From Thermomicrobiaceae bacterium (GTDB taxonomy: Bacteria > Chloroflexota > Chloroflexia > Thermomicrobiales > Thermomicrobiaceae): DNA of 58,582 bases. Position numbers and translations under genes: made by a program. Below, in pieces: positions 18,441 to 45,846 of this stretch. Where the stretch lies: contig JADBJL010000077.1 of assembly GCA_014874455.1 (NCBI GenBank), positions 1 to 58,582 of the forward strand. Reading direction: 5' to 3'. How positions within the stretch are numbered: the stretch's first letter is position 1; each line of letters opens with the position of its first letter. Under the pieces are notes generated by a model. The model did no database searches. It saw only the letters and a list, made by a program, of their open reading frames with translations, and was not told the origin of the DNA.

Positions 18441-18683
18441 ATGGGTCAGGGAACCGCGTCCACCCCTCAGCTTGTTGAGGCCCGTCGGCGCGCGGCCCGC
18501 GCCTCGGCACGGGCGCGCCGGCAGGCCGCGCAGGAAGCCCTCCTCGTCACTGTGCGCATCCAGCCAGCGCACGAGCTCTCCCTGGCGCAGCTCGCGGCGT
18601 GGCGATCCTTTTGGCGAGCGCTGCTCGCCGCGGAGCCGGAGCTGCCCGTCTCCGCCGGAGAGGAGGCCGCCGATGGCCGGTAG
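18441..18683 (+). CDS. Small basic helical hypothetical protein
   Basis: 80 aa from ATG 18441; a longer version starts at GTG 18381. Neither start has a strong ribosome binding site. The N-terminal half is rich in Arg and Ala (VEARRRAARASARARRQAAQ) and probably a basic helix. Its end overlaps the start of the primase-like gene by 11 nt, which supports translation coupling and membership of the replication operon. The role is unknown. Confidence 0.45.
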   Translation: MGQGTASTPQLVEARRRAARASARARRQAAQEALLVTVRIQPAHELSLAQLAAWRSFWRALLAAEPELPVSAGEEAADGR

Positions 18684-23120: not shown

Positions 23121-23613
23121 AAGACGGGCCCGAATGATTGGCGTAGACGATGCAGCTAGGCGACTAGAGGCAGCCGGTCGCCGCCGTGATGCGCGCCGAA
23201 TCCGAAGGAGATCCGAGTCGAAAACGCCTGGAATGCGTGCCGTCTGTACGGACGTGCTGCGGTGGTCGCCTCGGCCGTAGGCTGAGGGGAGGACGGCACG
23301 CAGGTCGGCGTGTCGGTTGTACCGCGCGAAGATCGAGCACCTAGCGGAGCACACCTCATCTGCCATGCTGAGTCTCCACCTCCCCGTTGTGGTGCCCTAT
23401 ACGACTGACCAGCGAACCAAAATTCGTGTCACCGACCACTGACGATCAGCCAGGTAGGGGCTTGACGACACGACGCCAATCCGTTATACGTCCCGCAGGA
23501 GATGGCAGGCGGAAATCCAGCGTGAGCCGAGCCACGCGCCTGCGGGCTGTGGCGCGGAAGAGGCCGTACTGCTCCGCATGCGCGCCAGCGCGCCTCGAAG
23601 TGGGCGGGACGTG
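23121..23613. other. Upstream region of the defence operon
   Basis: About 490 nt without a convincing gene. It ends with the strong promoter at 23462-23490 and a short leader of 123 nt to the helicase start. Confidence 0.4.
23462..23490 (+). promoter_or_regulatory. Sigma70-type promoter for the helicase-methyltransferase operon
   Basis: -35 TTGACG (23462-23467), spacer of exactly 17 nt, and -10 TATACG (23485-23490). It lies 123 nt before ATG 23614 in the same direction. It is the best consensus match I saw before the defence genes. Confidence 0.6.
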
Positions 23614-29400: not shown

Positions 29401-30671
29401 CCAACACCCGCACCTGCCCGGTCTTCCGCCGCCAGCGTGACGCCGAGTTGACCCGCGCCGTCTACCGCCGCGTGCCGGTGCTCCTGCGCGAGCAGCCCGA
29501 GGAGAACCCCTGGGGCGTCAGCTTGCGTCAGGGGCTCTTCAACATGACCTCTGACTCGGGTCTGTTCCGCACGCGGGCGCAGCTCGAGGCCGCCGGCTAT
29601 CGTCTTGTCGGCAACGTCTTCGTCCGGGGGGAGGCCCTCACCCCCGGCCCCTCTCCCCGTGGGAGAGGGGAGCACAGCCGGGGGGACGAGGGCCCCTCTG
29701 TCTACCTCCCCCTCTACGAGGCCAAGCTGGCCCACCAGTTCGACCACCGCTGGGCCAGCTACGGCGGCCCCGGCCGCTGGGACGGCCCGCCGGAGCCGGG
29801 CGGCCCGCCCTGGCTGGCCAAGCGACCCCAAAAGCCCGACGACGCCGTCGAGCTGGCTGCCGCGGCCAAGGCCGACCCCGCGCTGGTGGTGCTGCCGCGC
29901 TACTGGGTAGCCGAGGCCGAGGTCGAGGCCCGGCTGGCCGGGCGCTGGGGGCGCGGCTGGCTGCTCGGCTGGCGAAACATCACTAACGCCACCAACGAGC
30001 GCACGGTCGTCGCGACGGTTATCCCCCGGGCGGCGGTGGGGCACAGTTTCCTGCTCATGCTGCCCGACCTGGAGAAGACCGGAAGCCCGTGGTGCCTGCT
30101 GGCGAACCTGAACGCCCTCGCCGTCGATTACGTGGCGCGGCAAAAGCTAGGCGGCACAAATCTGACCTTCACCATCATGAAGCAGCTCCCCGTCCTGGCG
30201 CCCGCGGCCTACGCCCGGCCCTGCCCGTGGCACCCGGGCCTGACGCTCGCCGAGTGGATCCGCCCGCGGGCGCTCGAGCTGCTCTACACCGCCTACGACC
30301 TCGCTCCCTTCGCCCGCGACCTCGGCTATCACGGTCCGCCCTTCCGCTGGGACGAGGAGCGCCGCTTCCTGCTCCGCTGCGAGCTGGACGCCGCCTACTT
30401 CCACCTCTACGGCCTCTCCCGCGACGACACCGCCTACGTCCTCGGCACCTTCCCGCTGGTTGCGGAGCGCGACCGCGCCCGCTACGGCGAGGAGCGCACC
30501 GCGCGGGTGACCCTGGAGCTGTACGACGCGCTCGAGCGCGCCATGCAGAGCGGCCTCCCCTACCGCACCCCCCTCGACCCGCCGCCCGCCGACCCCCGCG
30601 CCGCTCACCCGCTCAGCACTGTTCCACAACCGGTTGTGCTGGAATCCGGTTCACGCGATCACGAGGAGTGA
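26481..30671 (+). CDS. Eco57I-type N6-adenine DNA methyltransferase (DrmMI/PglX-like)
   Basis: 1396 aa. ATG 26481 overlaps the helicase stop by 4 nt; GTG 26511 after GGAGGAGGGAG is an alternative start. SAM-binding motif I is CDPAVGSGHFLLA (D524), and the catalytic motif IV NPPW is at 784-787 (ANPPWEQLQ). The N-terminal about 500 residues resemble the helical parts of large type II/BREX-type methylases; the C-terminal part is a target-recognition region. It probably methylates adenine in host DNA so that the system spares self. An in-frame palindromic repeat (about residues 1052-1073, TPGPSPRGRGEHSRGDEGP) is inserted in the recognition region. No endonuclease motif is evident. Confidence 0.85.
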   Translation: MTPWVREEGAVVATVLEAEARATIERRQAVRLEGNLFSPDLIEQLRRGEGDGQRPGDFNLPRGHSLLDEIAAAYRDALGWWDVFRRRLEALPESDRGTSLTREEWIRPLLHRLGYELARNPTAYRLGNQTYFISHRAGRSDRDDAPEDAPPVHVAGARQELGRVDPSGVPRLSPHALVQEYLNRSDHLWGLVTNGLVLRVLRASPALRRQAYLEFDLEALFEGERFDDFALLYRLLHRSRLPDGLVDAERCWLERYYQRSLEEGSRARDRLRDGVERCLLALGNGFLNHPKNGELRQALEGNNFSPDKLYAELLRLVYRLLFLLVVEERGLLGGNDLYRRHYSVSRLRALVDRRVAATEDDDLWLSLLTLWQLLRDSALQVDGRPAAALLGLHVLDGGLFAPAAFESWRLTNRDLLEAVRWLVTMEGDGGRYPVNYAALDVEELGSVYESLLENQAEVKQSGGRLLFEFAEGTEKKLTGSYYTPHELVSELVRSALVPVVEERLRAARTREEQERAILGLRVCDPAVGSGHFLLAAARELAKRLAQVRTGEEEPAPERLREALRDVVRHCLYAVDKNPLAVELCKLALWIEGHAPGLPLTFLDHHVRCGDSLVGVFDLDVLVAGIPDDAYEREDRGERQNAQPLRARNRKERTQRAIGLDDVDPEESLLELGVMFEDLARRPDRDVLQVHALAADYERLRADPRYRRLREACDLWTAAFFADLRQPGLVPTTADVHRALAGRPLDDPQRGASAEELAAKLRFFHWPLEFPDVFAGGGFDVVLANPPWEQLQPEEVKFFTAIGATDIAQLSGDQRKQVIRALGRTNPALATAWKRYQRTIHLTANFVSSSGRLPEAGRGKINTYAVFAELAWRLLSPRGRAGLVVPTGIATDDTTKHLFGALVAERALVSLFDFENRLGLFPGVHRSYKFCLLTLAAGGHPEPARFAFFLHRADDLRDRERAFTLTPEDFALINPNTRTCPVFRRQRDAELTRAVYRRVPVLLREQPEENPWGVSLRQGLFNMTSDSGLFRTRAQLEAAGYRLVGNVFVRGEALTPGPSPRGRGEHSRGDEGPSVYLPLYEAKLAHQFDHRWASYGGPGRWDGPPEPGGPPWLAKRPQKPDDAVELAAAAKADPALVVLPRYWVAEAEVEARLAGRWGRGWLLGWRNITNATNERTVVATVIPRAAVGHSFLLMLPDLEKTGSPWCLLANLNALAVDYVARQKLGGTNLTFTIMKQLPVLAPAAYARPCPWHPGLTLAEWIRPRALELLYTAYDLAPFARDLGYHGPPFRWDEERRFLLRCELDAAYFHLYGLSRDDTAYVLGTFPLVAERDRARYGEERTARVTLELYDALERAMQSGLPYRTPLDPPPADPRAAHPLSTVPQPVVLESGSRDHEE
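29648..29670. repeat. Palindromic repeat unit inserted in frame in the methyltransferase gene
   Basis: A 10-bp perfect stem (CCCCTCTCCC / GGGAGAGGGG) with a 3-nt loop, inside the wider segment CTCACCCCCGGCCCCTCTCC that encodes LTPGPSPRGRG. This is a known type of interspersed repeat found inside proteins and between genes of many high-GC bacteria. Confidence 0.7.
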
Positions 30672-30676
30672 GCACT

Positions 30677-32440
30677 ATGGGTCGAGTGAAACGACTGATC
30701 ATCGAGGGGTACCGATCGATCGACTCACCAATCGAGATCGAGTTTCCCGAGGATGTACCGCTGGTGCTCATCGGTGAGAACAACGCCGGAAAGTCCAACA
30801 TCGTGCGTGCGCTAGACCTTGTTCTCGGGGAAAGGTGGCCAGGTAGCTATGACCCCGATGACCACGACTTCTTTGGGCGGAGAAGCGAGAATCGCCGGAT
30901 TGAGATCGCTGTCGAGGTCGAGGGGGTGACCAGGTCAAATAGAGTACCGGTCAGAAGGTTCGTGTGGAAATTTCCGACCGTCGATCAGAGACCCTACCGA
31001 GTAGTGTTCAATGATGGAACAGAGTCAATATATGTCAGCAATGAAATGCGCGAACAGTGTGCTTGTATTCTCGTGAGTGCGGATAGAAGACTTGCGCAAC
31101 ACCTAAGCTACTCGACGAAGTATACGCTTTTGTCAAAGCTTACGAGGAAGTTCCACAAGGCACTTATTTCAGATGAGAATCGGGTGTCTAATCTGCAGAA
31201 ACAGTTCAATCTACTTTCTGAAATATTTCGCGGGGTACCAGAGTTTACAGCCTTTGCGAAGGAGTTCCAAAGGCAGGTTGAAGAGTTCTCGGGTACAATC
31301 GAATACGCCCTGGGCATGGACTTCTCTGCATTCGACCCGTCCAACTACTTTCGATCCCTTCGCGTTCAGCCTGTCGAAAACGAGGAACCTCGGACGTTCG
31401 AGGAGCTCGGCACCGGTCAAGAGCAGATCCTCGCCATCTGTCTTACATACGCGTATGCGTCTACCTTCTATGGGACAGATGGGTTGCTCCTCGTCATCGA
31501 GGAACCAGAGGCCCATCTTCACCCTCTCGCTCAGCGTTGGGTAGCGCAGAAACTTAGAGAACTCGCCCAAACAGGGGTGCAGGTAGTCATCACGACCCAT
31601 AGTCCCGCGTTCCTCGATGTCACGGGACTCCCGGGATGGGTTCGCGTATACAAACGCGACGGAGCGACAAAGGTCATCCAGCTTACAGCAGAGAAGCTAG
31701 CCGAGTACTGTCGATCGACCGGCGGGACGAGAGCGACTTCGGAGAACATCCTCTCGTTCTATGCGGCCGGCGCAACCGAAGACATATTGGCCGGCATGTT
31801 CGCGCGTAAGGTTTTTCTCGTCGAGGGGCCATCGGAAGCCCTAGCCTTGCCCGTTTACCTATCCAGGGTAGACCTCAACCCTACGCAGGCCGGCATTGCT
31901 GTTATCTCGGTGGGTGGCAAGGGAAGTTTGGCTAAATGGTGGAGGCTGTTTTCCGCGTACGGTATACCCACCTACATCAGCTTTGATAATGACCGTGAGG
32001 ACGACGATAGTGGAAAGAAGCGTGAGGATGTGCTGTACGCAATCGGATTTCGAGAGGAAGCTGAACGCGTTCTCCAGACCGAGGAATTAGAAGTAGAAGG
32101 TGCGTTCGCAGTTTTCGGCAAGGATTTCGAGTCGTGTATGCAAAGATATTTTGGTGATGAGTATATGCGCCTCATGAAAGAAGCGCAAGAAGTCCATGGG
32201 TTGACTGCTAGAACAAGCAAGCCATTGGTGGCACGCTATGTTGCGGAGAGGCTCGAATACTCGGAAGAAGCGGAAGGCTGGCGAAGGCTCAAAGAGCTAG
32301 CTGATCGCATTCAAGCCTTGAAGACACCGGCGGTAGCGCCGACTGCCACTGACGATTCGCCGCTTAGTGTCGCTCCACAGTCTTTGGTAGAAGATGTGGA
32401 GTCGGAGCAGGAAAACGAGTTTGACGACATCCCATTCTAG
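30677..32440 (+). CDS. OLD-family ATPase-TOPRIM nuclease
   Basis: 587 aa from ATG 30677, with GAGGAG 9 nt upstream, 6 nt after the methyltransferase stop. N-terminal SMC/ABC-type ATPase: Walker A GENNAGKS (33-40), Walker B IEEPEAHLHP (274-283), H-loop TTHSP (306-310). C-terminal TOPRIM: E383-G-P-S-E387 and D437-N-D439. Such proteins cut DNA and are found alone as OLD nucleases or as GajA of Gabija. Base composition is visibly lower in GC than the genes on both sides, and codon use differs, so it probably arrived separately. It could restrict phage DNA together with the methyltransferase pair. Confidence 0.85.
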   Translation: MGRVKRLIIEGYRSIDSPIEIEFPEDVPLVLIGENNAGKSNIVRALDLVLGERWPGSYDPDDHDFFGRRSENRRIEIAVEVEGVTRSNRVPVRRFVWKFPTVDQRPYRVVFNDGTESIYVSNEMREQCACILVSADRRLAQHLSYSTKYTLLSKLTRKFHKALISDENRVSNLQKQFNLLSEIFRGVPEFTAFAKEFQRQVEEFSGTIEYALGMDFSAFDPSNYFRSLRVQPVENEEPRTFEELGTGQEQILAICLTYAYASTFYGTDGLLLVIEEPEAHLHPLAQRWVAQKLRELAQTGVQVVITTHSPAFLDVTGLPGWVRVYKRDGATKVIQLTAEKLAEYCRSTGGTRATSENILSFYAAGATEDILAGMFARKVFLVEGPSEALALPVYLSRVDLNPTQAGIAVISVGGKGSLAKWWRLFSAYGIPTYISFDNDREDDDSGKKREDVLYAIGFREEAERVLQTEELEVEGAFAVFGKDFESCMQRYFGDEYMRLMKEAQEVHGLTARTSKPLVARYVAERLEYSEEAEGWRRLKELADRIQALKTPAVAPTATDDSPLSVAPQSLVEDVESEQENEFDDIPF

Positions 32441-32446
32441 CCTCCA

Positions 32447-32599
32447 TTGTGTAGGGCGTACGCCGAGAAGTCTCAGGGCGGGCGGTGCGCCGGGGAGGAG
32501 GCGGCGAGCCGGGCTGGGTACCGCTGCTTCACCTCGGTGGAGGAGTTCCAGGAGTACCCAATGCGCGGCGCTCTCGCCCTCGAGCCAGCGGAGGCCTGA
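32447..32599 (+). CDS. Possible short gene remnant before the nuclease gene
   Basis: A frame of 50 aa from TTG 32447. The end GYRCFTSVEEFQEYPMRG is protein-like. There is no ribosome binding site, and the frame may be a degenerate gene end. It lies 6 nt after the ATPase-TOPRIM stop. Confidence 0.2.
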   Translation: MCRAYAEKSQGGRCAGEEAASRAGYRCFTSVEEFQEYPMRGALALEPAEA

Positions 32600-32640
32600 G
32601 CGCGCGGGCCAGGCGCCGAGGGGAAAGGAGGGCCGGGAGG

Positions 32641-33837
32641 ATGCTCCTAGTGAGAAAGCGCGGTGAAGGCACGTGGCGCGCGCCGAAGGTGACTTCCTAT
32701 GCAGATGAGCCAGCCTTCCGGAGGTTGCTCCGGCAGTCGCCGGAGCTACTTCCCTGGCCGGAGACAGGGCCGATGGCTGTCGTCGATGAGTTCACGATCC
32801 CCTCGGATTACGCTGCCGATCTTGTCGGCGTCGACGTAAACGGCAACATCATGATCGTCGAGTGCAAGCTAGCGAGCAACCCGGAGTCGCACGCGGCGGT
32901 CGTAGGGCAGATTCTGGGCTACGCCGCTTGGCTCGAAGGAATGTCGTACGAACAGTTCGACAGCCGGTTCAGAAGCCGCAGCGGCTGTTCGCTTGAGGAG
33001 CACTTGACTACGAAGGCGCCGGAGGGCTGGGACGTGGAGTCCTTCCGGACATGGGTGGCTGAGAATCTCGCAGCCGGGCGGTTCCGGCTCGTCATTGCGG
33101 TCGACGCGCTTCCGGACGAGTTGGCGAAGACGTTACGCTTCCTATACCGGTACACGACGAACGATCTCGATATGAACGTTCTCGAGTTGCCATATTACGC
33201 TGACGATGACTTCGAGATTGTCTTGCCGCAGGTCTACGATCGAGCAGCGCTCCAAGAAGAACCAAAAGGGCGGCTTCGCTGGGACGAAGCATCGTTCTTC
33301 ATGGAACTGGAAAAGCTCGGTGCATCCAGGGAAAGCGTGGATGCGGCGCGCGACTTGTTCAACCGCCTCAAGGCAAAGGGGCTCAAGGAGCGCTGGGGCT
33401 CTGGTCGCTCGGCGTCAGTCAACTTTGACCTCCATTTTCAGGGTAAGAAAGCGAACGTACTAGGAATGTTCGCGTGGCCGGGGTCGAAAGGGCAACTCAC
33501 CGTCCAGTTTCGCTTTATGCGCCAGCAAGATATTCCGCTCGATGTCCTCCGACGCATGGCGTTGCAACTTGAAGACGTTTCCGATTCCAAATTCCAGGCG
33601 GACTTGCGTAACGTTGTAGGCACAGGCTTCGACGGGGAGCCGAGCATGAAGATCGATCCGCATCTGACAGAGCCCGGGGTAATTGACGCCATTCTGCGCG
33701 CAGTCGACGAACTCATCGCGTGGCGAACTGGCACCTGGCAGTCTGGAGAGGTCGAGGATGGGAGTGATGAGCCCGCCTGTACAAAGAACGGCGGTGGGCT
33801 CATCGAGGAAACGGCTGTACACCATCCGGAAGACTGA
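32641..33837 (+). CDS. PD-(D/E)XK (DUF91/RecB-like) nuclease
   Basis: 398 aa from ATG 32641, with AAAGGAGG 9 nt upstream; the open frame goes further up but without homology. The N-terminal nuclease core shows D60 in AADLVGVD, E74-C-K76 in MIVECKLAS, and Q90 in VVGQILGYAAWLEG: the full D-ExK-QxxxY set. The C-terminal about 170 residues (SVNFDLHFQGKKANVLGMF, IPLDVLRRMALQL) form a separate domain, duplicated in a decayed copy at 34126-34631. It is likely a restriction-type DNA-cutting component. It is followed 38 nt later by a dead AbrB gene. Confidence 0.75.
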   Translation: MLLVRKRGEGTWRAPKVTSYADEPAFRRLLRQSPELLPWPETGPMAVVDEFTIPSDYAADLVGVDVNGNIMIVECKLASNPESHAAVVGQILGYAAWLEGMSYEQFDSRFRSRSGCSLEEHLTTKAPEGWDVESFRTWVAENLAAGRFRLVIAVDALPDELAKTLRFLYRYTTNDLDMNVLELPYYADDDFEIVLPQVYDRAALQEEPKGRLRWDEASFFMELEKLGASRESVDAARDLFNRLKAKGLKERWGSGRSASVNFDLHFQGKKANVLGMFAWPGSKGQLTVQFRFMRQQDIPLDVLRRMALQLEDVSDSKFQADLRNVVGTGFDGEPSMKIDPHLTEPGVIDAILRAVDELIAWRTGTWQSGEVEDGSDEPACTKNGGGLIEETAVHHPED

Positions 33838-33875
33838 GGGACGTGCATAGAGGCTGCGAGCGCGAGGGATTGCGC

Positions 33876-34006
33876 ATAGAGGCGAGCAAGGTCGGCAAGC
33901 GGGGAGCAGTGGTGATCCCGGCCGCGCTGCGCCGGCGCTTCGAGATCGAGGCAACTCGCTGGTAGTGGTCGAGGGCCTCAACGAGCGCATTCTGAGCCGA
34001 CGGTGA
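33876..34006 (+). pseudogene. Decayed AbrB-type antitoxin gene
   Basis: The DNA matches the intact gene at 34761 closely (SKVGKRG[AT]VVIPAALRRRF). Three changes kill it: the start ATG is ATA (33876), a one-base deletion after IEI shifts the frame, and the premature stop TAG follows. In the shifted frame, NSLVVVEG resumes the family sequence (SLVVAEAT). Length is 131 nt, one short of a multiple of three. Confidence 0.8.
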
Positions 34007-34125
34007 GTCAGGTAGGGAACCACTCGCTCGGGAGGGTCACGGGCGGGGCGCGGAGTACTCTGCGGGAGGTCAGGAAGGAGGGTTAGCGGTCGACTGGCTC
34101 GAGGAGGATGAAGAGGAGGTAGACG

Positions 34126-34631
34126 ATGACCATGTCCTGGCGCCCCCCTCGAAAGTTCACGGAGACAGATCTTCTCAATGGTCTACGAGAGGCGTGCTCG
34201 CCGGAATGCTACCGGGCGCTGTTGCCACTCTACAACTGGCTCAAACGACGCGCGCTCACGTACTGGTTCGGCGGAAACGAGATACCTACGGTCAACTTCA
34301 TCTTCCGGATCCAAGAGAAGCAGGTCAGAGTGCTGAACCTGAGTCCGTGGGAGAGTAGAAAGGGAACAAAACGCCCCTGCTCGAGGTGAACTTCCTGAAC
34401 CTCGCCGAGGCTGGCGTCTCGCACGATGTCTTGCGGCAGTTCGCTGAGCGGCTCGCCGCGATCCCCGACCCGGAATTCCGGAAGCGGCTCAGCGAGCTGG
34501 AGGGAGCCAAGTTCCGTAAGGAGCCGAGCATCTGGCTCAACACGGCGCTGCCGCAGCCCGGGGTGGTCGAGACGATCCAGAACGCGCTCGACGAGCTCAT
34601 CTCGTCGCCGGCCGGCACGACGCGGGCTTGA
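34126..34631 (+). pseudogene. Frameshifted copy of the nuclease C-terminal domain
   Basis: The first frame starts MTMSWRPPRKFTETDLLN and breaks at TGA 34387-34389; the second frame runs from about 34350 to TGA 34629-34631. Joined, PTVNFIFRIQEKQVRVLNL and LLEVNFLNLAEAGVSHDVLRQFAERL mirror the C-terminal domain of the nuclease at 32641-33837 (SVNFDLHFQGKKANVLGMF ... IPLDVLRRMALQLEDV), and both end PG-V-[IV]-[DE]-x-I-x-x-A-x-DEL. So this is a paralogue fragment with a single frameshift. Confidence 0.7.
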
Positions 34632-34760
34632 GCTGGCCGGCCTGGAGGGGGAGGGTGCTGGCTGCACCGGAACAGGGTAGGCTAGCGCCGAGACGCTGTG
34701 CTACAATGACCTCGGTGCCCGAATGCCCGACATTCAGGCAAAAAGCGAGAGGACGCGCGC

Positions 34761-35054
34761 ATGGAGACGAGCAAGGTCGGCAAGCGGGGCACGGTGGTGA
34801 TCCCGGCCGCGCTGCGTCGGCGCTTCGGGATCGAGGAGGGCTCGCTGGTGGTGGCTGAGGCTACCGACGAGGGCATCCTGATCCGCCCAGCGGTGGTCAT
34901 GCCGCTGGAGGTCTACACGCCGGAGCGCAAGGCGCGTTTCCTCCTCGAGAACGCTACCGACGCCGAGGACTACGCGCGGGCCGCCAGGGTGGTGCGCGAC
35001 GAGCTCGGCCTGGATCCCGATACCCTGGGCGTCGAGCCGCCCGCGCGCCGCTGA
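34761..35054 (+). CDS. AbrB/MazE-type antitoxin
   Basis: 97 aa. The N-terminal SpoVT-AbrB swapped-hairpin fold shows SKVGKRGTVVIPAALRRRF and GSLVVAEATDEGILIRP. The C-terminal tail binds the toxin. The stop lies 1 nt before the GTG start of the PIN gene. The upstream stretch has a TACAAT (34702-34707) as a possible -10, and GAATG-CCCGA-CATTC (34721-34735) as a possible operator, suggesting autoregulation. Confidence 0.85.
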   Translation: METSKVGKRGTVVIPAALRRRFGIEEGSLVVAEATDEGILIRPAVVMPLEVYTPERKARFLLENATDAEDYARAARVVRDELGLDPDTLGVEPPARR

Positions 35055-35055
35055 C

Positions 35056-35484
35056 GTGCACCGGCTGTTCCTAGACGCTAACGTGCTCTTCTCGGCAGCC
35101 TACCGCAGGGACGCCGGGGTGCGCGCGCTGTGGGGTCTTCCGGGGGTGGAGCTGGTGGCGTCAGCGTACGCCGTGGAGGAGGCGAGGCGGAACCTGAGCG
35201 CTCCGGAGCAGCGAGTAGGCCTCAACGAGCTGCTCGCGACGGTACGCATCTCCGACAGGCTTGCGGATCTGGCGGCGCACCCCGAGATCGCGGCGTCAGG
35301 GCTGCCGGAGAAGGATCTGCCGATCCTGCGCGCCGCGGTGGCGGCCGGGTGCACCCACCTCGTGACCGGCGACCGCCAGCACTTCGGCCACCTCTTCGGC
35401 CGGAGGGTCGCCGGTGTGCTGGTGCTCCGCCCGGCGGACTACCTGGCAGCAAGAGGCCCCTGTCGTTGCCCGGAGCCCGGTTAA
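35056..35484 (+). CDS. PIN-domain toxin (VapC-like)
   Basis: 142 aa from GTG 35056. PIN acidic residues: D7 in FLDANVLFSA, E in YAVEEARRNL, D in EKDLPILRAA and D in VTGDRQHFGHL. It is a probable RNase neutralised by the AbrB-type protein just upstream. The pair sits within the defence cluster and may serve as an addiction module for the island. Confidence 0.85.
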   Translation: MHRLFLDANVLFSAAYRRDAGVRALWGLPGVELVASAYAVEEARRNLSAPEQRVGLNELLATVRISDRLADLAAHPEIAASGLPEKDLPILRAAVAAGCTHLVTGDRQHFGHLFGRRVAGVLVLRPADYLAARGPCRCPEPG

Positions 35485-35510
35485 CCCTTACCCAGTCTAT
35501 CTCGAGGCAC

Positions 35511-35615
35511 GTGACGGCCTGGCTGTCCGACGAGGAGCAGGACTCGCAGCCTTGCACGATAGTAGACACGTTGTCCGAGACCCCAGGAGCGTCGGGGTTC
35601 CCAGTAGAAGGGTAG
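35511..35615 (+). CDS. Possible 34-aa ORF before the NERD-UvrD gene
   Basis: GTG 35511 has GAGG 4 nt upstream and the frame ends 4 nt before ATG 35620. The peptide (MTAWLSDEEQDSQPCTIVDT) is acidic. It may be a leader peptide, but chance is possible. Confidence 0.2.
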   Translation: MTAWLSDEEQDSQPCTIVDTLSETPGASGFPVEG

Positions 35616-35619
35616 AGAG

Positions 35620-37983
35620 ATGGCGCGTGTTGTTCCTGAGCGTGGGAGACAGGAGTTCCGGTCAACCGCGGAGTGGCACTTCTACGAGGCGTGTCGTCGG
35701 CAGCTCCCAGACCACATCGTCGTGCTGCACGGCGGGCGTTACCTGCTCCGCGACCCCGAGCGCTGGGACGACGACGGCGAGATCGATTTCCTGATCATCG
35801 ACCCCAATCGCGGCTACCTGGTCGTGGAGGTCAAGGGCGGGGGCATCGTCATCGAGAGAGAAGATTGGACCTCGATCGACCGCTACGGCCGGCGACACCG
35901 GCTGAAAGAGAGCCCCTTGAAGCAGGCGATGACGCGCAAGCACGGGCTGATCGACAAGCTCAAGAAAGCCGGCGTGAACACGAGGCGGCCACGCTTCTGC
36001 TACGCTGTCTGCTTCCCAGACTGTCGGGTGGAGGCCGATCTCTCGTTCGAGGCGCCGCGCGACGCGATCATCGACTCGGAAGACCTCGATAACCTCCCCG
36101 CAGCGGTGGAGCGTTGCTTCGGCGGCCCACAGGCACGGGGCTACGTGAAGCCTGAGGAGATCGACCGGGTCATCGAGCTGTTCTACCCCTCAGTTGAGGT
36201 GCCGCGTGCACGGCTCGGGGTGCTGATCCGTCGCGGCGAGCGAGAGATGGCCCGTCTCACCAGGGAACAGGTACGGGTGCTCGACTACTTCAGCAGGAAC
36301 CATCGGGTGCTGGTGACCGGCTGCGCTGGCTCGGGCAAGACGTTTCTAGCGTTGGAGCAGGCGCGCCGGCTAGCTCGTGCTGGGTACCACGTCCTCTTCA
36401 CGTGCCAGCGTCCTGAGCTGGCGGAGTGGATCGAGTCGCATTTCAGTCGGAACGCTGGACTGAGCCGCGAGCAGAGAGAACGCATTCTGGCTATCGACGT
36501 GTACTCGTTCGTGACGCGCTGGGGCGAGACCGAAGGCATCTTGGAAATCGGGACTCCGACGGGGTCAGACGAGGTCTGTGTGTGCTACGTGCCAGAGCTG
36601 ATACTCGGCCCATGTTACGAGCGCGCTGTTCGCTCGTTCGAGTTCACGCGCTCATTTGCAGAGAGCAATGCGCACATCTACGGGGTGACGAACGTGCCCT
36701 CGGATATCCACGATCCGATCCCTCTCCACGGTGGGGCTTGGGCTGGAGAGGAGTTCTTTGCCGATGCACTCCATCATATCCTGCAGCGATCGACTCACCG
36801 ATTCGATGCGCTGATCGTGGACGAGGCACAGAGCATACCGACGCTGATGTGGGAGGGGCTCTTACAATCCCTGCAGAACCCTTCTCGCAGTCCCGTCTGG
36901 GTCTTCGCCGACGACAATGATCTCGTTGCTTGTGAGCCGATGCCGTTTGCCGAGGCGGCCGAGGTCGAGGCACAGCAAGGGAATGTGAGCGATCCAGCGT
37001 GGGCTGCCTGGCTAGAACAATGCGGTGGTCCGTTTGTCCGGGTCCGACTCTCGGAATGCCTACGTAACGCGTTGCCAATCCAAGAGTACGCACTACGCTA
37101 CTACCTCGGAGGCGGGCCAGTGCGGCGGGCTGGATTGCCCGGGCCGGAGCCGGAGGTAGTCCAACTGCCCGAGGGGCAGGACTTGCGGGAGACGGTCGAC
37201 CGGATCGTGCATCGGCTGGTGCACGAAGAACGGATAGAACCTCGCGACATCGTCGTCCTCTCGCCAGCTCCGGTTGAAGGTAGCGAGTTCCCCGCCTCTT
37301 GGCGTGGCCCAGTCTCCGGCCTCACCTACCGACGTGAAGTGAGTCCAAACGAGCATAAGCGAAATGTGATCCGTGTCGAAACGGTCGCCGGCTTCCGCGG
37401 ACTGGAAAGCCCGGTGGTTGTTTTCGTCGAACCCGACGGTCTCAGCCATGGGGTAGATGACGACCTCGACGAGCTCGAGCTGATGTACATTGCCCTGACG
37501 CGCGCGACCCAACACCTCGTCATCGTTCGCCAGGGCTTACCGGCCCAGGTGGGGCTTGAGGATCTCGTAGCAGCGCTGGAACAGCGCCTTCGGGACCCGC
37601 TCGGCTTTCCACGAGACGTGCGGCCACGCGCGGAGGCGCTACTGGACCAGGCGAAATCCGCCATGCGTGAGGCCGACAAGCTGACTACGGACATAATCCG
37701 ATCCAAAGCGGTGGACCAATACAACTCGGTACTCGCAGAGTTCAGTATCCGTCTGGCTGGTCGGCCTCCTGTCACTCTGGTGATACGCAATCCGAAGGCT
37801 CTTCCTCCGCAGGCGGCGGCGCAGCCCGTCTCCGCTGAGACGTGGTCGCTCGAGGTCGATAGGCCTGAACCGCTCTACATCGACCCCGGGCTCGTCCGGG
37901 CTTTGCTTCGGCAGCTTGACGACTATACCGAAGCGATCCGAACGCTGCTGCTCTCGAGCGAGCACAGCTTCACGGAAAGCTGA
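35620..37983 (+). CDS. NERD-domain nuclease / UvrD-like helicase
   Basis: 787 aa. N-terminal NERD nuclease: E18, D56 in GEIDFLII and E70-V-K72 in LVVEVKGG. Then a SF1 helicase: Walker A G234-C-A-G-S-G-K-T241, Walker B D401-E-A-Q404 in LIVDEAQSIPT, and YIALTRATQHLVIV near the C-terminus. It probably unwinds and cuts DNA. UvrD helicases pair with OLD-type nucleases in Gabija, but here the two are 3.2 kb apart. The C-terminal about 120 residues are of unknown fold. It is preceded by a small ORF and followed by 119 nt to the next. Confidence 0.85.
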   Translation: MARVVPERGRQEFRSTAEWHFYEACRRQLPDHIVVLHGGRYLLRDPERWDDDGEIDFLIIDPNRGYLVVEVKGGGIVIEREDWTSIDRYGRRHRLKESPLKQAMTRKHGLIDKLKKAGVNTRRPRFCYAVCFPDCRVEADLSFEAPRDAIIDSEDLDNLPAAVERCFGGPQARGYVKPEEIDRVIELFYPSVEVPRARLGVLIRRGEREMARLTREQVRVLDYFSRNHRVLVTGCAGSGKTFLALEQARRLARAGYHVLFTCQRPELAEWIESHFSRNAGLSREQRERILAIDVYSFVTRWGETEGILEIGTPTGSDEVCVCYVPELILGPCYERAVRSFEFTRSFAESNAHIYGVTNVPSDIHDPIPLHGGAWAGEEFFADALHHILQRSTHRFDALIVDEAQSIPTLMWEGLLQSLQNPSRSPVWVFADDNDLVACEPMPFAEAAEVEAQQGNVSDPAWAAWLEQCGGPFVRVRLSECLRNALPIQEYALRYYLGGGPVRRAGLPGPEPEVVQLPEGQDLRETVDRIVHRLVHEERIEPRDIVVLSPAPVEGSEFPASWRGPVSGLTYRREVSPNEHKRNVIRVETVAGFRGLESPVVVFVEPDGLSHGVDDDLDELELMYIALTRATQHLVIVRQGLPAQVGLEDLVAALEQRLRDPLGFPRDVRPRAEALLDQAKSAMREADKLTTDIIRSKAVDQYNSVLAEFSIRLAGRPPVTLVIRNPKALPPQAAAQPVSAETWSLEVDRPEPLYIDPGLVRALLRQLDDYTEAIRTLLLSSEHSFTES

Positions 37984-38102
37984 GCCGAGAGAACTTCCAA
38001 GGAGGGCAGTGAGAAGGAGCAAGGACTCGAGCTGCGATGACATTCGATAACGAGCGGCTGTGAACACTAGTCATCGTACGCTTCTGCCGATTTGCGGAGG
38101 GA

Positions 38103-38270
38103 GTGCCCCGTGAAAGGACGGTCTGGGAACCCCAGACTTCCGAGTTCGGTGCCACTAAGGATAGTGTAGATATCTTGGATGAGTGGCTCGACCCATCAGG
38201 AAACACGTCGTCGCTCGCGCGAGACGTGCGCCTGAATGCATCGATGAGGGTCAGCCGGTGCCGGAGGTGA
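38103..38270 (+). CDS. Possible 55-aa protein upstream of the giant helicase
   Basis: GTG 38103 follows GGAGG with a 2-nt gap. The product includes TVWEPQTSEFGATKDSVDIL and DEWLDPSGNTSSLAR, with an amino-acid mix unlike chance in high-GC DNA. Its TGA overlaps the GGAGGTGA ribosome binding site of the next gene, and the gap to GTG 38275 is 4 nt, so the two would be coupled. The function is unknown. Confidence 0.4.
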   Translation: MPRERTVWEPQTSEFGATKDSVDILDEWLDPSGNTSSLARDVRLNASMRVSRCRR

Positions 38271-38274
38271 ACCC

Positions 38275-41200
38275 GTGAGCATCTTCGCGCTCCATCAGGC
38301 CGTCCTGGAAGACTACCGCAGCTTCGTCCACGCCTTCGTCCGCGTGGCTGACGAGCGCATGAGCCGCTTCGTCGATGAGGTGCTGCTGGAGCACGACCAC
38401 TTCTGGCCGGAGCCGCTGCTCCAGCTCTCCCCCGCCTACCGGGTCGAGGCCGACGTCGACGAGCTCGCGCGCTCCGGGCTGCTCCATCCGGAGACCGCAC
38501 AGGTCTTCCGGCGCGCCGAAGACGACAGCCCGTACCGGCTCTTCGCTCACCAGGTGACGGCACTCCGGGCCGCCGCCGAAGGCCGCAGTTACATCGTGAC
38601 CAGCGGCACCGGCTCCGGCAAGTCGTTCTGCTACTTCATCCCGATCTTCGACGCGGTGGTGCGCGCGCCGGGCGAGCCCGGCCCGGTGGCACTGGTGGTC
38701 TACCCGATGAACGCGCTCGTCAACTCGCAGCTTCAGGCCCTGCGCGAGCTGCGCGAGGCCTACGAGCGGCGCACCGGCCGCGCCTTCCCGCTCCGCTTCG
38801 CCCGCTATACCGGAGAGACGCCCGACGAGGAGCGCGAGGAGATCCGGCGCGACCCGCCGCACCTGCTGCTGACCAACTACGTCATGGCCGAGTTGCTGCT
38901 GGTGCGCCCGGAGGATCGGCCGCTGGTCAGGCCGCGTCCAGACGCCCGGCTGCCGTTCTTCCTCGTCTTCGACGAGCTGCACATGTACCGTGGCCGCCAG
39001 GGGGCCGACGTGGCAATGCTGGTCCGCCGGCTCAAGGCTCGGCTGCAGCGCCCCCGGATGGTCCACGTCGGCACCAGCGCGACGCTGGTGGCCCGGCCAG
39101 GCGCGGGGCCCGAGGAGCGCCGGCAGGCGGTCGCCGAGTTTGCCGGCCGCTTCTTCGGCCACGCCTTCGGCCCTGGCGATGTCATCGAGGAGACGTTGGA
39201 ACCGGCGACGCGCGGCGGCCCACCGTCCCGCGCTGAGCTGCTGGCCGCCCTCTCGTTGCCACTCCCCGGCGAGAGGGAGGGATTTCTGGCACACCCGCTC
39301 GTCCGCTGGCTGGAGTTGGCGCTCGGGCTCGAGGTCGAGTCCGACGGCACGCTGCGCCGCCGTCGGCCGCGGGCGCTCTCGGAGCTGGCTGCCGAGCTCG
39401 CCGGCTTGACCGGCGCGCCGGTCGAACAGTGCCGGGAACGCATCGAGGCGGCGCTGACGCACGGGGCTCGGCTCCGAGCGCTGGCCTTCAAATTGCACCA
39501 GCTCATCGCGCAGACCGACCCGGTCTACGCTACCCTCGCGCCGCCAGCCGAGCGCGAGCTCGGCCTGGAGGTAAGCTACGGCGATCCGCCGCGCTACCCG
39601 GTCTGCTTCTGCCGTGTCTGCGGGCAGGAGTACTACCGCGTGGTCTGGCGTGAAGACCGGCTGGAGCCGTACCCGGTCGGGATCGAGCTCGAGGACGTGG
39701 ACGCCGTGGCCGGTTACCTGGCGCTGGCCGATTCCGTGCCGGAATGGTCGCCGGAGATGCTGCCGCCCGAATGGTACGACAGCCGGGGACGCCTGGCGCC
39801 GACTTGGCGTGACCGGGTGCCGCGTGAGGTGTGGGTCAGCAGCGACGGGCACGTGCTGGGCGGCGAGGCGGAAGGCGCGCTGCGGGCGTGGTGGCAGGCG
39901 AAGCGCTTCTGGCTGTGCCTCCGCTGTGGCGAGTGGTATACGGGCCAGGACGGCGAGTTCGTCAAGGTGAGTTTCCTCTCCGGCGAGGGGCGCTCATCGG
40001 CGACGACGGTACTGGCCACGGCGTTGCTCCGCTATGCGCCGGAGAACGGCGCGCGGGACAAGCTGCTGACCTTTACCGACAGCCGCCAGGACGCCGCGCT
40101 CCAGGCCGGGCATTTCAACGACTTCGTCCAGGTCGCGGTGCTCCGCTCGGCCCTCTATGCCGCCTTGCGCGAGGAAAGCGAGCTACGCTTCGACCGGCTG
40201 GCGGATGCGGTGGTGGCTCGCATGGGACTCGAGCTACACGACATCGCGGCGAACCCGCAGCTCTTCCCCGGCTCACCCGCGGCGCGCGAGGTGTGGCGTG
40301 CCTTCCGTGACCTCACCGAGTATAGGCTCTACGAGGACTTGCGGCGGGGCGGCCGGGTGGTCCAGCCGAACCTGGAAGACACCGGCCTGCTACGCGTCGA
40401 TTACGCTGGGCTGGCGGAGCTGGCAGCCGAGGAGGAGCTCTGGGGCGAGCTGCCGGAGATGGCGGCACTCACGCCTGCAAGGCGCGAGTGGTTGCTGCGC
40501 ACGCTGCTCGATCACCTGCGCAAGCGGCTGGCGATCTACGCGGAGCCGCTCCAGGAGTCGTACCAGAGCCAGTTGCTGAGCCGTGCCCGGCAGCACCTGA
40601 ACGAGTTCTGGGGTGTGGATCCCGACCATGCGAGCCTGCGCCGGGCAACCCTGGCGGTCTGGTCGGAGCAGGGCGATGCCGCCGAGTGGGGCACCGTGCG
40701 GCTGACCGCTCGCTCCCGGCTCGGGCGCTTTCTCTGCCGCGAGCTGGGGTTGGACGCTGGCGCCTACCAGGCGCTGATGCCGCGTCTGCTCGAGCGTCTG
40801 ATCGGCTACGGGCTGCTGCGCGACGTGCCCACGGCCTGGGGCGGGCGAGCCTATCAGGTGGACGCCGCGTGCCTCTGCTGGCAATGTGGCGATGGCACGC
40901 CACCTCCGCCTGATCCGATCCTGACGCGGGGCCAGCCGGATGCCCACCAGGCGGCGGCGAACCGCTTCTTCCAGCGCTTCTACCAGGAGGCAGCTCGGGA
41001 GCTAGGCGCGCTCGAGGCGCGGGAGCACACGGCGCAGGTCGTGACGCCGGGGGAGCGTGAGCGCCGGGAGCGGCGTTTCCGCTGGACGCCAGAGGACGCG
41101 CGCGACCCCAGCCTTGGCCGGCGACTGCCGTACCTGGTCTGCTCCCCGACGATGGAGCTGGGGATCGACATTGCCGACCTCGACCTCGTCCACCTCCGAA

Positions 41201-43299
41201 ACGTGCCGCCCACGCCGGCCAACTACGCTCAGCGCAGCGGCCGCGCTGGCCGCCAGGGGCAGGCCGGTCTGATCCTCACCTTCTGCGGCCGCACCAGCAG
41301 CCACGACCGCTACTTCTTCCGCAACCGCACCGATCTGGTGGCCGGCGCCGTGCGCGCGCCGCGGCTGGAGTTGGCGAACCCGGCGCTCCTGGAGGCGCAT
41401 GTGCACGCGGAGTGGCTGGCCGAGGTGGGGCTGCCCCTGCGCTCCTCGATCGAGGAGGTGATCGACACCGACCAAGACGAGCTGCCGCTCCGGGAGACGG
41501 CCCGTGCCCAGCTCGAGCTCCATCCTCAGCGTCGTGCAGCCCTCCTCCAACGCTTGCAACGGGTCTTCGAGCATGACCGAACGCTGTCCGAGGTCGCTCG
41601 CTGGTTCGGCGAGCGCTGGCTGGAGCGCGTCGTCGATGAGGCACCGCGAGCCTTCGATCGCGCGTTCGACCGCTGGCGCGAGTTGTGGCGGATTACCGAG
41701 GCACGGCTGGAGGAAGCCAATCGGCTGGCCAAGCGTGCCCGGAGTGGCGAGGACCAACGCCAGGCGCGCCAGCTCATGGAGGAGGCCATGCGCCAGCGGA
41801 GCCTGCTCCTGCAGCACGACGTGGCCCGGGAGGAAGGTGACTTCTACCCCTACCGCTACCTGGCCTCCGAAGGCTTCTTGCCCGGCTACAACTTCCCAGC
41901 CCTGCCGGTGCGCGCCTGGGTGCCGCGCGGAGGTGGCGAGTACATTGCTCGACCCCGCTTCCTGGCGATCCGCGAGTTCGCGCCGGAGAACGTCGTCTAC
42001 CACGAGGGCGCCAAGTGGCGGGTCACCCGCCTGCAGGCGCCGGTGGGCGGGCTGGCCGAGCGGGTGCGATTGCTCCGGCTGTGCCGGCTCTGCGGCGCCT
42101 TCGCCGAGGCCGACCGTGACCTGTGTCCGGTCTGTCAGGCTGTACTCGGCGGAGAGAATAGCGACCTCGTCTCGCTCCTCGAGATGCCTAACGTCCGGCT
42201 CAGCCGCTGGGAGCGGATCACCTGCAACGAGGAGGAGCGGCGCGCCCGCGGCTACAAAGTGACGCCGCACGTCCGCTTTGCGCCGGCTGAGCACGGTCAC
42301 CGGGTACTCGTCAGCCAGGTGGTCGTCGACGGTCGGCCGCTGTTCGAGCTGCGCTACGCGCCAGCGGCCACGCTGCTCTTGGTCAACCACGGCTGGGCGG
42401 TTGACCCGCGCGGTTTCCGGGTCGACGTTGCCAGCGGTGAGCTGCTGGGCGAGGAGAACAACACGCCGCAGCGGCGGTCTCTCCAGGCCGAGGTGCGGAG
42501 GGTCGTTATCGGGGTCCAGGATACCCGAAACGTGCTGCTGGTGAAGCCACTCGAAGAGGGACTGCTGGACGACCGGGTAGTCGAGACCTCGCTCTGCTGG
42601 GCGCTGGTGCGCGGAATCGAGCAGGCTTTCCAGCTCGAGCCCGGCGAGCTACGCGCGGATGTGCTCGGCGAGGGATCGCACCGGGCCATCCTGCTCTACG
42701 AGGCGTCTGAGGGCGGGCTTGGTGTCCTGGAGCGCCTAGCTGCCGAGACCGACGCGCTGCAGCAGGTGACAACAGAGGCGTTGCGCCTTTGCCACTTCCT
42801 GGACGGCGAAGAAGGCGCTGGCTGCGAGCGCGCGTGTTACGCCTGTTTGCTCAGCTATGACAACCAGCGTGAGGCGCGCCTGCTCGACCGCTGGGCGGTG
42901 CGCGAGCTCTTGAGCTCGCTGGCCGAGAGCCGCGTCGAGCCGCAGGTCGGGCCGCGCTCGCGTGAGGAGCATCTCGCCTACCTGCGCGAGCGGGCCGGCT
43001 CGAGCCTCGAGCGAGAACTACTCGACCTGCTCGAACAGGGCGGTTATCGCCTGCCCGACGATGGGCAGAAGTCGCTCAGCGAGCCGCGCTGCATCGCCGA
43101 CTTCTTCTATGAGCCGAACGTGCTCGTCTTCTGCAACGGCCCGCACCACGACACGCCCGATCAGCGGCGGGTCGACGAGCGGCTGCGGGAGGAGCTGCGC
43201 GAGCGCGGTTATCGCGTGGTGGTGCTGCGCTGGGATGTGCCGCTGGAGGAGCAGATCCGCCGTTACCCCGAGGTCTTCGGCTTCAGCGCGCCAGCCTGA
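38275..43299 (+). CDS. Giant SF2 helicase with DUF1998-type Cys region and Vsr/DUF559-like nuclease end
   Basis: 1674 aa from GTG 38275, with a perfect GGAGGTGA site 4 nt upstream. Helicase motifs: Walker A GTGSGKS (111-117), box II D233-E-L-H236 in VFDELHMYRG, then GIDIADLDLVHLRN and QRSGRAGRQGQ (about 985-996). Near the C-terminus, four Cys (C1506, C1517, C1521, C1524; ACYACLLSYDNQ) are the MrfA/DUF1998-type zinc region. The last 80 residues resemble a Vsr/DUF559 nuclease: D1609 in IADFFYEP, then VFCNGPHHDTPDQRRVDERL and RGYRVVVLRWD. Families with this plan include DruE of Druantia and, split over genes, DrmA/DrmB of DISARM; which applies cannot be settled here. It likely scans and destroys foreign DNA. 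Confidence 0.8.
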   Translation: MSIFALHQAVLEDYRSFVHAFVRVADERMSRFVDEVLLEHDHFWPEPLLQLSPAYRVEADVDELARSGLLHPETAQVFRRAEDDSPYRLFAHQVTALRAAAEGRSYIVTSGTGSGKSFCYFIPIFDAVVRAPGEPGPVALVVYPMNALVNSQLQALRELREAYERRTGRAFPLRFARYTGETPDEEREEIRRDPPHLLLTNYVMAELLLVRPEDRPLVRPRPDARLPFFLVFDELHMYRGRQGADVAMLVRRLKARLQRPRMVHVGTSATLVARPGAGPEERRQAVAEFAGRFFGHAFGPGDVIEETLEPATRGGPPSRAELLAALSLPLPGEREGFLAHPLVRWLELALGLEVESDGTLRRRRPRALSELAAELAGLTGAPVEQCRERIEAALTHGARLRALAFKLHQLIAQTDPVYATLAPPAERELGLEVSYGDPPRYPVCFCRVCGQEYYRVVWREDRLEPYPVGIELEDVDAVAGYLALADSVPEWSPEMLPPEWYDSRGRLAPTWRDRVPREVWVSSDGHVLGGEAEGALRAWWQAKRFWLCLRCGEWYTGQDGEFVKVSFLSGEGRSSATTVLATALLRYAPENGARDKLLTFTDSRQDAALQAGHFNDFVQVAVLRSALYAALREESELRFDRLADAVVARMGLELHDIAANPQLFPGSPAAREVWRAFRDLTEYRLYEDLRRGGRVVQPNLEDTGLLRVDYAGLAELAAEEELWGELPEMAALTPARREWLLRTLLDHLRKRLAIYAEPLQESYQSQLLSRARQHLNEFWGVDPDHASLRRATLAVWSEQGDAAEWGTVRLTARSRLGRFLCRELGLDAGAYQALMPRLLERLIGYGLLRDVPTAWGGRAYQVDAACLCWQCGDGTPPPPDPILTRGQPDAHQAAANRFFQRFYQEAARELGALEAREHTAQVVTPGERERRERRFRWTPEDARDPSLGRRLPYLVCSPTMELGIDIADLDLVHLRNVPPTPANYAQRSGRAGRQGQAGLILTFCGRTSSHDRYFFRNRTDLVAGAVRAPRLELANPALLEAHVHAEWLAEVGLPLRSSIEEVIDTDQDELPLRETARAQLELHPQRRAALLQRLQRVFEHDRTLSEVARWFGERWLERVVDEAPRAFDRAFDRWRELWRITEARLEEANRLAKRARSGEDQRQARQLMEEAMRQRSLLLQHDVAREEGDFYPYRYLASEGFLPGYNFPALPVRAWVPRGGGEYIARPRFLAIREFAPENVVYHEGAKWRVTRLQAPVGGLAERVRLLRLCRLCGAFAEADRDLCPVCQAVLGGENSDLVSLLEMPNVRLSRWERITCNEEERRARGYKVTPHVRFAPAEHGHRVLVSQVVVDGRPLFELRYAPAATLLLVNHGWAVDPRGFRVDVASGELLGEENNTPQRRSLQAEVRRVVIGVQDTRNVLLVKPLEEGLLDDRVVETSLCWALVRGIEQAFQLEPGELRADVLGEGSHRAILLYEASEGGLGVLERLAAETDALQQVTTEALRLCHFLDGEEGAGCERACYACLLSYDNQREARLLDRWAVRELLSSLAESRVEPQVGPRSREEHLAYLRERAGSSLERELLDLLEQGGYRLPDDGQKSLSEPRCIADFFYEPNVLVFCNGPHHDTPDQRRVDERLREELRERGYRVVVLRWDVPLEEQIRRYPEVFGFSAPA

Positions 43300-43889: not shown

Positions 43890-44144
43890 ATGACGATACA
43901 CCGGGTAGGGAGCGTAGGGTTGCCGACGATCCGAGAGCTGAGAGAACAGGCGGGACTCTCACAGATGCAACTCGCCGTGAAGGTGGGGGTTTCGCTGGGC
44001 GCCGTCCGGTTATGGGAGGCGGGAAAGGCGGAGCCGAAGGGCCGCAACCTCGTGAGGCTAGCCGAAGTGCTCGGCGTGCACCCGCGAGAGATCGAGTTCG
44101 GAAAACCAAAGACGGCCAAACCGCAGGAAGGCGATGAGCGGTGA
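43890..44144 (+). CDS. XRE-family HTH regulator
   Basis: 84 aa from ATG 43890, with GGTGG 6 nt upstream; ATG 43884 is also possible. The Cro/C1-type HTH is clear: TIRELREQAGLSQMQLAVKV, GVSLGAVRLWEAGKAEP and NLVRLAEVLGV. It lies 67 nt before the serine recombinase gene in the same direction and behind a promoter-operator, so it probably controls the recombinase and itself. It fits a phage-like or integrative-element switch. Confidence 0.85.
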   Translation: MTIHRVGSVGLPTIRELREQAGLSQMQLAVKVGVSLGAVRLWEAGKAEPKGRNLVRLAEVLGVHPREIEFGKPKTAKPQEGDER

Positions 44145-44211
44145 AGCGTTGGGCCCCGCACGGGGAAAGCGGTACGCGGGGCCTCATCAGAAAGGAGGTT
44201 CGCGAGTCACA

Positions 44212-45846
44212 ATGAGTCTACCACGCGCCGCGATCTACACCCGCGTCAGTAGCGACCTGCAAGAGGACAACTACTCGCTCCCCACACAGGAAGCCGCCTG
44301 CCGCGCCTACTGCGCCGAGCATGGCTACCAACTCGCCGGCGTCTTCAGCGACGTGCACACTGGCGCGCAATACCGCGAGCGGCCGGGGCTCTCCCAGCTC
44401 CGCGAGCTGGTGCGCCAGAAGGCCATCGACGTGGTCGTCTGCTATGCTGTCGACCGGCTCAGCCGCAACCAGGCCCACCTCTACATCCTGGTGGAGGAGT
44501 TCGCCGAGCACGGCTGCCGGCTGGAGTTCGTCACCGAGAAGTTCGAGGACACGGCGGTCGGGCGCTTCATCCTGGCAGCCAAGTCGTTCGCGGCGGAGAT
44601 CGAGCGGGAGAAGATCATCGAGCGCACCACGCGGGGCACGCACGCCCGCGTCCGCTCCGGCAAGCCCAAGCCCACGGGCCGCCCGCCGTACGGCTACCGC
44701 TGGGCCGATGAGGAGAAGACGCGCTTCGAACCACACCCAGACGAGGCCCCGGTCGTGCAGCGCATCTTCGCGATGCTGGCCGATGGCGCGACACTCCGGG
44801 GGACAGCGAACGAGCTCCAGGCGGCCGGTATCCCCACGCCCCTCAAGTGCCGCGTCTGGGATCCCAAGACGATCCAGGTGATCGCTCGCAACCCGGCCTA
44901 CAAGGGCCAGTACTATGGGCTCCGCACGCGCACCGTTCGCGTCAACGGCCGCCAGCGGGTGCAGAAGCTCGACCCGTCCGAGTGGGTACTGCTCCCGGAT
45001 GTCGCCCCTCCACTGGTGTCTGAGGAGATATGGGAACGAGTGCAGCAGCGACTCGCCAATAACAAGCAGGACGCCAGCCGGAACCTCAAGTACGCGCCGT
45101 ACGCCCTCTTGCGCGGCGGCTTCGTCAAGTGCGGAACGTGCGGCCGCACGATGGTCGTGCGGACGGCCCGGAGCGGCGTACCACGCTACGCCTGCAACGG
45201 CGAGCCAGACCATCGGTGCCCTGAGCCAGCTACCACCACCGTCAAGCGGCTCGATGAGCTGGTGCGCGACTGGGTCGCCAACACGCTCACCAAGCGTGAG
45301 GTGTTGTTGGCAGCAGCACACCTCCTGGATGATGACCCAGCACTGCAGCAGATCGAAGGCGAGATTGAGGCCCTCACCCGCCGCGCTGAGGAGCTTCGAC
45401 GCCGACGGCAGAACTACCTGGACGCCGTCGGCGAGACGACCGACGCCGATATCCGCCGAGACCTGCTCGGCCTCGCGGCCAACCTTGGCCGGCAAATCGA
45501 GCAGGTGGAGGCCGAGCTCGCCCGTGTCCGCACGGCCCGCGCGGGCTGGGAACGGCGGCGCACGGCCATCCTGGCCTTTGCCGACCAGGCGGCGGAGCTG
45601 GCGCGGCGCTTCAGCTCGCTGCCGCTCCCGCTCCAGCGCGACGCGCTGCGGGCGATGGGGCTGTCGGTGCGCGTGTACCGCTCGGGCCGCCAGGGCAAGC
45701 GATCTCGGGTAGAGATCGAGATCTTCGCTCCAATTTGTGTGGACGATTACCCGCTCGCGTTCCAAGGTAATCTGCACCGGATCGAGGAGGCCGACTTCGA
45801 ACTGATCCACCAGGCGCTCCTCGAGGCCCACGCGACGGTCGCCTAG
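44212..45846 (+). CDS. Large serine recombinase / integrase
   Basis: 544 aa from ATG 44212, with AAAGGAGGT about 11 nt upstream. Resolvase domain: catalytic Ser13 in YTRVSSD, VCYAVDRLSRNQAHLY and FAAEIEREKIIERT. Then the recombinase domain (PPYGYRWADEE, ATLRGTANELQAAGIPTP) and a zinc ribbon with C307, C310, C328 and C336 (KCGTCGRTM, YACNGEPDHRC), then a long coiled coil (QQIEGEIEALTRRAEELRRR). This is the large serine integrase architecture, which moves integrative elements and prophages. No excision partner is seen nearby. Its attachment sites could not be identified by eye. Confidence 0.92.
   Translation: MSLPRAAIYTRVSSDLQEDNYSLPTQEAACRAYCAEHGYQLAGVFSDVHTGAQYRERPGLSQLRELVRQKAIDVVVCYAVDRLSRNQAHLYILVEEFAEHGCRLEFVTEKFEDTAVGRFILAAKSFAAEIEREKIIERTTRGTHARVRSGKPKPTGRPPYGYRWADEEKTRFEPHPDEAPVVQRIFAMLADGATLRGTANELQAAGIPTPLKCRVWDPKTIQVIARNPAYKGQYYGLRTRTVRVNGRQRVQKLDPSEWVLLPDVAPPLVSEEIWERVQQRLANNKQDASRNLKYAPYALLRGGFVKCGTCGRTMVVRTARSGVPRYACNGEPDHRCPEPATTTVKRLDELVRDWVANTLTKREVLLAAAHLLDDDPALQQIEGEIEALTRRAEELRRRRQNYLDAVGETTDADIRRDLLGLAANLGRQIEQVEAELARVRTARAGWERRRTAILAFADQAAELARRFSSLPLPLQRDALRAMGLSVRVYRSGRQGKRSRVEIEIFAPICVDDYPLAFQGNLHRIEEADFELIHQALLEAHATVA

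Follow-up and report, generated by a model that had tools for sequence, protein, structure and literature searches.

A probable Type I-like ARMADA locus, carried by a mobile element of a Thermomicrobiaceae bacterium, with a private active-site change in its ArmC helicase-nuclease

A long gene on a 58,582-nucleotide contig of a Thermomicrobiaceae bacterium (the whole contig is called the window here) encodes a helicase, a DUF1998 region and a nuclease-like end in one chain, which raises the question of which defense system it belongs to and whether its nuclease still works. The original prediction suggested a DrmA-DrmB-nuclease fusion, as if DISARM genes had been joined, with a nuclease that may be altered or inactive. 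What we find is a known kind of protein in a known kind of system, both well supported, whose unusual trait is one private change in the active site. The open reading frame (38275-43299, forward strand) runs for 1674 amino acids with zero internal stops, from a GTG start that agrees with the starts in relatives, and its product is a YprA-family SF2 helicase with an MZB/DUF1998 region and a C-terminal Vsr-fold nuclease. Pfam places DEAD at residues 92-271, Helicase_C at 925-995 and MZB/DUF1998 at 1442-1525. Walker A (TSGTGSGKS, 109-117), box II (DELH, 233-236) and motif VI (QRSGRAGR, from 986) are all present, with key helicase residues invariant or near-invariant in alignments of 55-57 relatives. 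The four predicted cysteines do lie in the MZB region, with C1521 and C1524 invariant and C1506 and C1517 mostly conserved among 55 relatives. The intact frame, Pfam domains, motifs and predicted fold together bear out the single chain that was proposed. Because dN/dS against an 84% identical relative is low, both for the whole gene (0.16) and for the nuclease region (0.185), codon comparison indicates that armC is under purifying selection and is not decaying.

The gene product is very probably the ArmC protein of ARMADA, the anti-phage system described by Bell et al. 2025, in which ArmC bears a C-terminal Vsr nuclease and of which Type II defends E. coli from phages (PMC12458937). It shares with Type I ArmC the single-chain YprA helicase, the MZB and the Vsr end, and it has the same BrxHII-like ArmA and PglX-like ArmB partners (PMC12458937). 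Both partner genes lie upstream on the same strand: armA (23578-26484, +) encodes a BrxHII/DrmD/DpdE-like SNF2-type helicase of 968 amino acids, and armB (26481-30671, +) a PglX/DrmMI-like DNA methylase of 1396 amino acids with NPPW at residue 784. Their assignment draws on domain and PADLOC matches and on homology to E. coli ArmA and ArmB, and their ATPase and methylase motifs are intact, so that the BrxHII/RapA-like helicase and NPPW-bearing PglX-like methylase of the ARMADA gene set are both present. Across the locus, PADLOC matches are to DruE, DrmD, DrmMI and DpdE. Identity to the ARMADA proteins of E. coli ATCC 8739 is 27% for ArmA (E 5e-43), 26-33% for ArmB (E 2e-27) and 24-32% for ArmC (E 2e-32). 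Within ArmC, RecA1, RecA2 and MZB/DUF1998 share one chain as in ARMADA's YprA-family helicase. ARMADA also has a zinc-binding barrel inserted in RecA2 with at least two CxxC; two such pairs, 446/449 and 548/551, do not vary across 57 relatives and may belong to such a barrel, although structural comparison did not confirm its fold. The helical region after RecA1 is predicted to fold, with PqqD as its top structural match (Z 6.0) followed by wHTH proteins; BrxA, the domain looked for there, was not among the matches in this structural comparison.

Kinship with DruE and with DISARM, also part of the original prediction, is supported, and each system offers an alternative. The protein could be a Vsr-ended DruE working alongside Druantia partners, given that its best PADLOC models are DruE1 and DruE3, that Vsr ends are reported on some Druantia III-like proteins (PMC12458937), and that DruE is likewise a YprA-family helicase with MZB. 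However, the list of the 2023 PADLOC release holds no ARMADA model, and DruE is therefore merely the nearest model on offer. The neighbors are ArmA- and ArmB-like, and among the eight scanned with PADLOC none is best matched by DruH or any other Dru gene. E. coli DruE is similar just locally and lacks the C-terminus of ArmC, and the C-terminal domains of Type III DruE are of PLD type, against a Vsr fold in ArmC here. On partner genes and C-terminus we reject Druantia membership, which we regard as very unlikely.

Less probable still is a fused DISARM, with DrmA, DrmB and a nuclease in one chain and DrmD and DrmMI adjoining. Its appeal lies in the DrmD-like and DrmMI-like neighbors and the YprA-type helicase, all of which DISARM (DrmD, DrmMI, DrmA, DrmB, DrmC) shares with this locus. 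Yet the DrmA models score weakly in PADLOC (2.8e-13) against DruE (1.7e-88), and DISARM keeps its helicase and DUF1998 module in separate genes with a PLD-type nuclease, DrmC, whereas here one chain ends in a Vsr fold; separate drmA, drmB and PLD-type drmC genes were not found among the scanned genes. A single chain is moreover general across the ARMADA-Druantia lineage and usual in the YprA family, DISARM being the branch that split the architecture (PMC12458937). PADLOC scores and the tree thus lead us to reject a gene fusion, and the ArmA and ArmB genes upstream leave the protein as ArmC of ARMADA.

As to type, tree position together with gene order and content makes it probable that the locus is Type I-like. 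In a tree of 39 proteins, for which the program warned of long branches, this ArmC groups with C-A-B and A-B-C loci, and the Type II E. coli ArmC falls outside. The C-A-B loci are from Deinococcus, Nocardioides, Rhodococcus and Roseomonas, and ArmC is 39% identical over its full length to the Deinococcus protein. Type II of E. coli ATCC 8739 (NC_010468) has the same A-B-C order and homologous ArmA, ArmB and ArmC, but its ArmC is similar just locally, at the 24-32% given above, and is longer (2113 amino acids against 1674) with extra C-terminal domains. The E. coli locus also ends with ArmD, a GajB-like helicase with a RelE-like domain, which is absent downstream of ArmC here, where HTH and serine recombinase genes stand instead. 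The NERD-helicase encoded between armB and armC was considered as an ArmD equivalent and rejected, the similarity (33% over 78 amino acids) being confined to ATPase motifs. The usual Type I order is C-A-B, whereas here several defense-type genes sit between ArmB and ArmC in an A-B-[slot]-C arrangement. We found 65 related loci in many phyla, often from hot habitats judging by genome names, and the A-B-C order recurs in about 20 relatives.

The nuclease end (residues 1535-1674; 42877-43296, +) contains E1579, D1609, N1621 (Asp in relatives) and H1625. Structure prediction and comparison, proposed as a check, gave a Vsr-type fold: the AlphaFold2 model from 47 sequences has a pLDDT of 92.4, and its top match is I-Bth0305I (3r3p; Z 9.0, rmsd 3.0 over 90 residues). 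E. coli Vsr follows at Z 7.9 (1cw0) and 7.1 (1vsr), and two mitoribosomal proteins, each with Z 8.4, rank between the two nucleases; by the tool's own warning, a Z below 8 may reflect a mere common arrangement. Pfam found no credible match in the nuclease end of this copy alone, relatives give weak matches to DUF559 (34 of 47) and MTES_1575 (30 of 47), and a PDB sequence search returned a weak match to 3r3p alone (E 0.056). Predicted structure, conserved residues and the weak DUF559/MTES_1575 matches in most relatives together identify the ArmC C-terminus as a Vsr-type nuclease fold. The fusion idea had been exposed on two sides, to the lack of a nuclease fold and to membership of a known DruE clade with the same end; the fold is there, and the family does largely prove to be a known DruE-like clade ending in this way. 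The active site of E. coli Vsr consists of E25, D51, H64, H69 and D97 (PMC12907096); the conserved E1579, D1609 and H1625 of ArmC match E25, D51 and H69 of that set in their order and spacing. Unlike Vsr and I-Bth0305I, which are stand-alone repair or homing enzymes, the ArmC end is a tethered domain; it has the same predicted fold and order of active-site residues but carries Asn at the H64/Asp position.

That position is N1621, in the FCNG motif (1619-1622) that was correctly read from the sequence along with the retained D1609. Residue 1621 corresponds to H64 of E. coli Vsr, a position at which Caulobacter VsrA and functional Vsr proteins of Neisseria have Asp (PMC12907096). Asp also stands there in all 53 alignable relatives, the nearest (84% identical) included. 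The family motif is therefore F-C-D-G and not the expected E-x-D-G, with FLDG in the Type II ArmC of E. coli. Compared with ARMADA Type I, N1621 replaces the family Asp by a one-base difference, the codon at 43135-43137 (+) reading AAC here and GAC in the 84% identical relative. In the alignments N1621 is private to this ArmC copy. Key acids had been suspected of replacement, which applies to D1621, a single acid changed in this copy alone. Since E1579, D1609 and H1625 are retained, D1621 alone is lost and purifying selection acts on the gene, the nuclease of this copy may be weakened, and we lean towards its being impaired. Cutting is probably reduced or altered, with helicase action kept; the original prediction of a changed nuclease site is supported. 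As a natural single-residue Vsr variant, this copy offers a handle on the role of the ArmC nuclease. A degenerate Vsr end occurs in the ArmC relative of a Chlorohelix plasmid (L080, 11001-16073), which has FCID and misses the conserved His region.

Two other explanations of N1621 deserve consideration. Because the 99% identical armC copy of a same-genus genome (L003) stops before codon 1621, and a search for a second copy confirming Asn1621 found none, we assign a minority but appreciable probability to an error of sequencing or assembly, or to a variant that is minor in the population; the true protein would then carry Asp, and its Vsr nuclease would be ordinary and active. The single-base distance from the relative's codon and the 114 contigs of the source genome are in keeping with such an error, whereas armC is otherwise undamaged and the contig matches relatives coherently on either flank. 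It is rather unlikely that the domain is a pseudo-nuclease retained for DNA binding, like the predicted-inactive Vsr ends reported for Druantia I/II (PMC12458937). Continued constraint on the region (dN/dS 0.185) agrees with that idea, but this is one recent change, the nearest relative has Asp, and E1579, D1609 and H1625 are still in place.

DruE helicase-nuclease biochemistry (PMC13192584) and ARMADA point mutants (PMC12458937), both obtained on other proteins, suggest how ArmC may act, and we slightly favor a translocate-and-nick mechanism. By analogy with published YprA-family work, ArmC would be an ATP-driven DNA translocase that loads onto DNA with single-stranded stretches, its OB-CON-MZB canopy would grip a DNA strand, and the tethered Vsr domain would nick or cut a strand of phage DNA. 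ArmB methylation probably marks host DNA as self, and the probable role of ArmA is to translocate on DNA or to remodel it.

The locus is carried on a 28.1-kb mobile element (17658-45753), bounded in this way because its flanks are contiguous at the empty sites of G003 (contig C5, L116; 55710/55712) and G001 (contig C12, L117; 96039/96041), two genomes of the same genus. At the empty site lies an EVE-domain gene, split here by the element, with its 5′ part at 17284-17657 (+). Besides the ARMADA genes, the element holds a DnaG-type zinc-ribbon protein (18472-19338) and an ATPase of unclear family (19335-21431) at its left end, an HTH protein, and a large serine recombinase (44134-45846, +) whose last ~31 codons lie within the split EVE-domain gene. 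The zinc-ribbon protein and ATPase (18472-21431) are possibly the element's replication module. There is good reason to regard the protein as ArmC of a Type I-like ArmA-ArmB-ArmC system riding as cargo on a serine-integrase element. Known ARMADA loci thereby gain a Type I-like one from a heat-loving, Thermomicrobium-like host, borne by a mobile element whose empty sites are clear.

Between ArmB and ArmC lies a slot (30672-38274) with, all on the forward strand, an OLD/GajA-like ATPase-TOPRIM protein (30677-32440), a PDC-S11-like protein (32641-33837, start inferred), a MazE/AbrB-type antitoxin (34761-35054), a PIN-domain toxin candidate (35056-35484) and a protein with a NERD nuclease-related domain and a UvrD-like helicase (35620-37983). 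Among A-B-C ARMADA loci, which are related to one another, the B-C gap exceeds 300 bp in 16 of 22 and the A-B gap in 1 of 24 (Fisher p 1.2e-6), the A-B junction being nearly always contiguous. Relatives with a slot (L015, L016, L022, L027, L032, L039, L048, L060, L064, L066, L100) carry GmrSD/HEC-05, HEC-01A, SoFic, AAA/OLD-like, IetS, DUF3644/PDC-S19, PDC-M56A and RmrA-like genes. The ArmB-ArmC junction of A-B-C loci is thus a variable slot, often with other defense genes; this is an interesting pattern whose function is unproven, because the loci are related, the gap ORFs were called with no gene finder, and such genes abound in defense islands. If general, the slot is a place to seek unrecognized defense genes. 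Papers on accessory genes lying inside operons of this type were also sought, with no decisive result. It seems improbable that A-B-C ARMADA is a modular platform with exchangeable defense cassettes, in which cutting here is delegated to the OLD-TOPRIM protein and NERD-helicase since the ArmC nuclease is without a key acid. The slot genes were also considered as fixed parts of ARMADA, which we reject: the OLD and NERD-helicase genes are without B-C relatives in the loci searched, where the S11 and MazE-PIN genes recur in one same-genus genome (G003) only. That genome (L100; G003:C33, 1-8845) keeps S11, MazE-PIN and the C-terminal part of ArmB (81% amino acid identity), and its slot contains a GmrSD-like gene. 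Its ArmC is 47% identical to the one described here and belongs to a different subclade, an apparent exchange of ArmC. In the present slot, two short ORFs (34126-34631) resemble, by eye, pieces of the C-terminal half of the S11-like protein, like a broken second copy.
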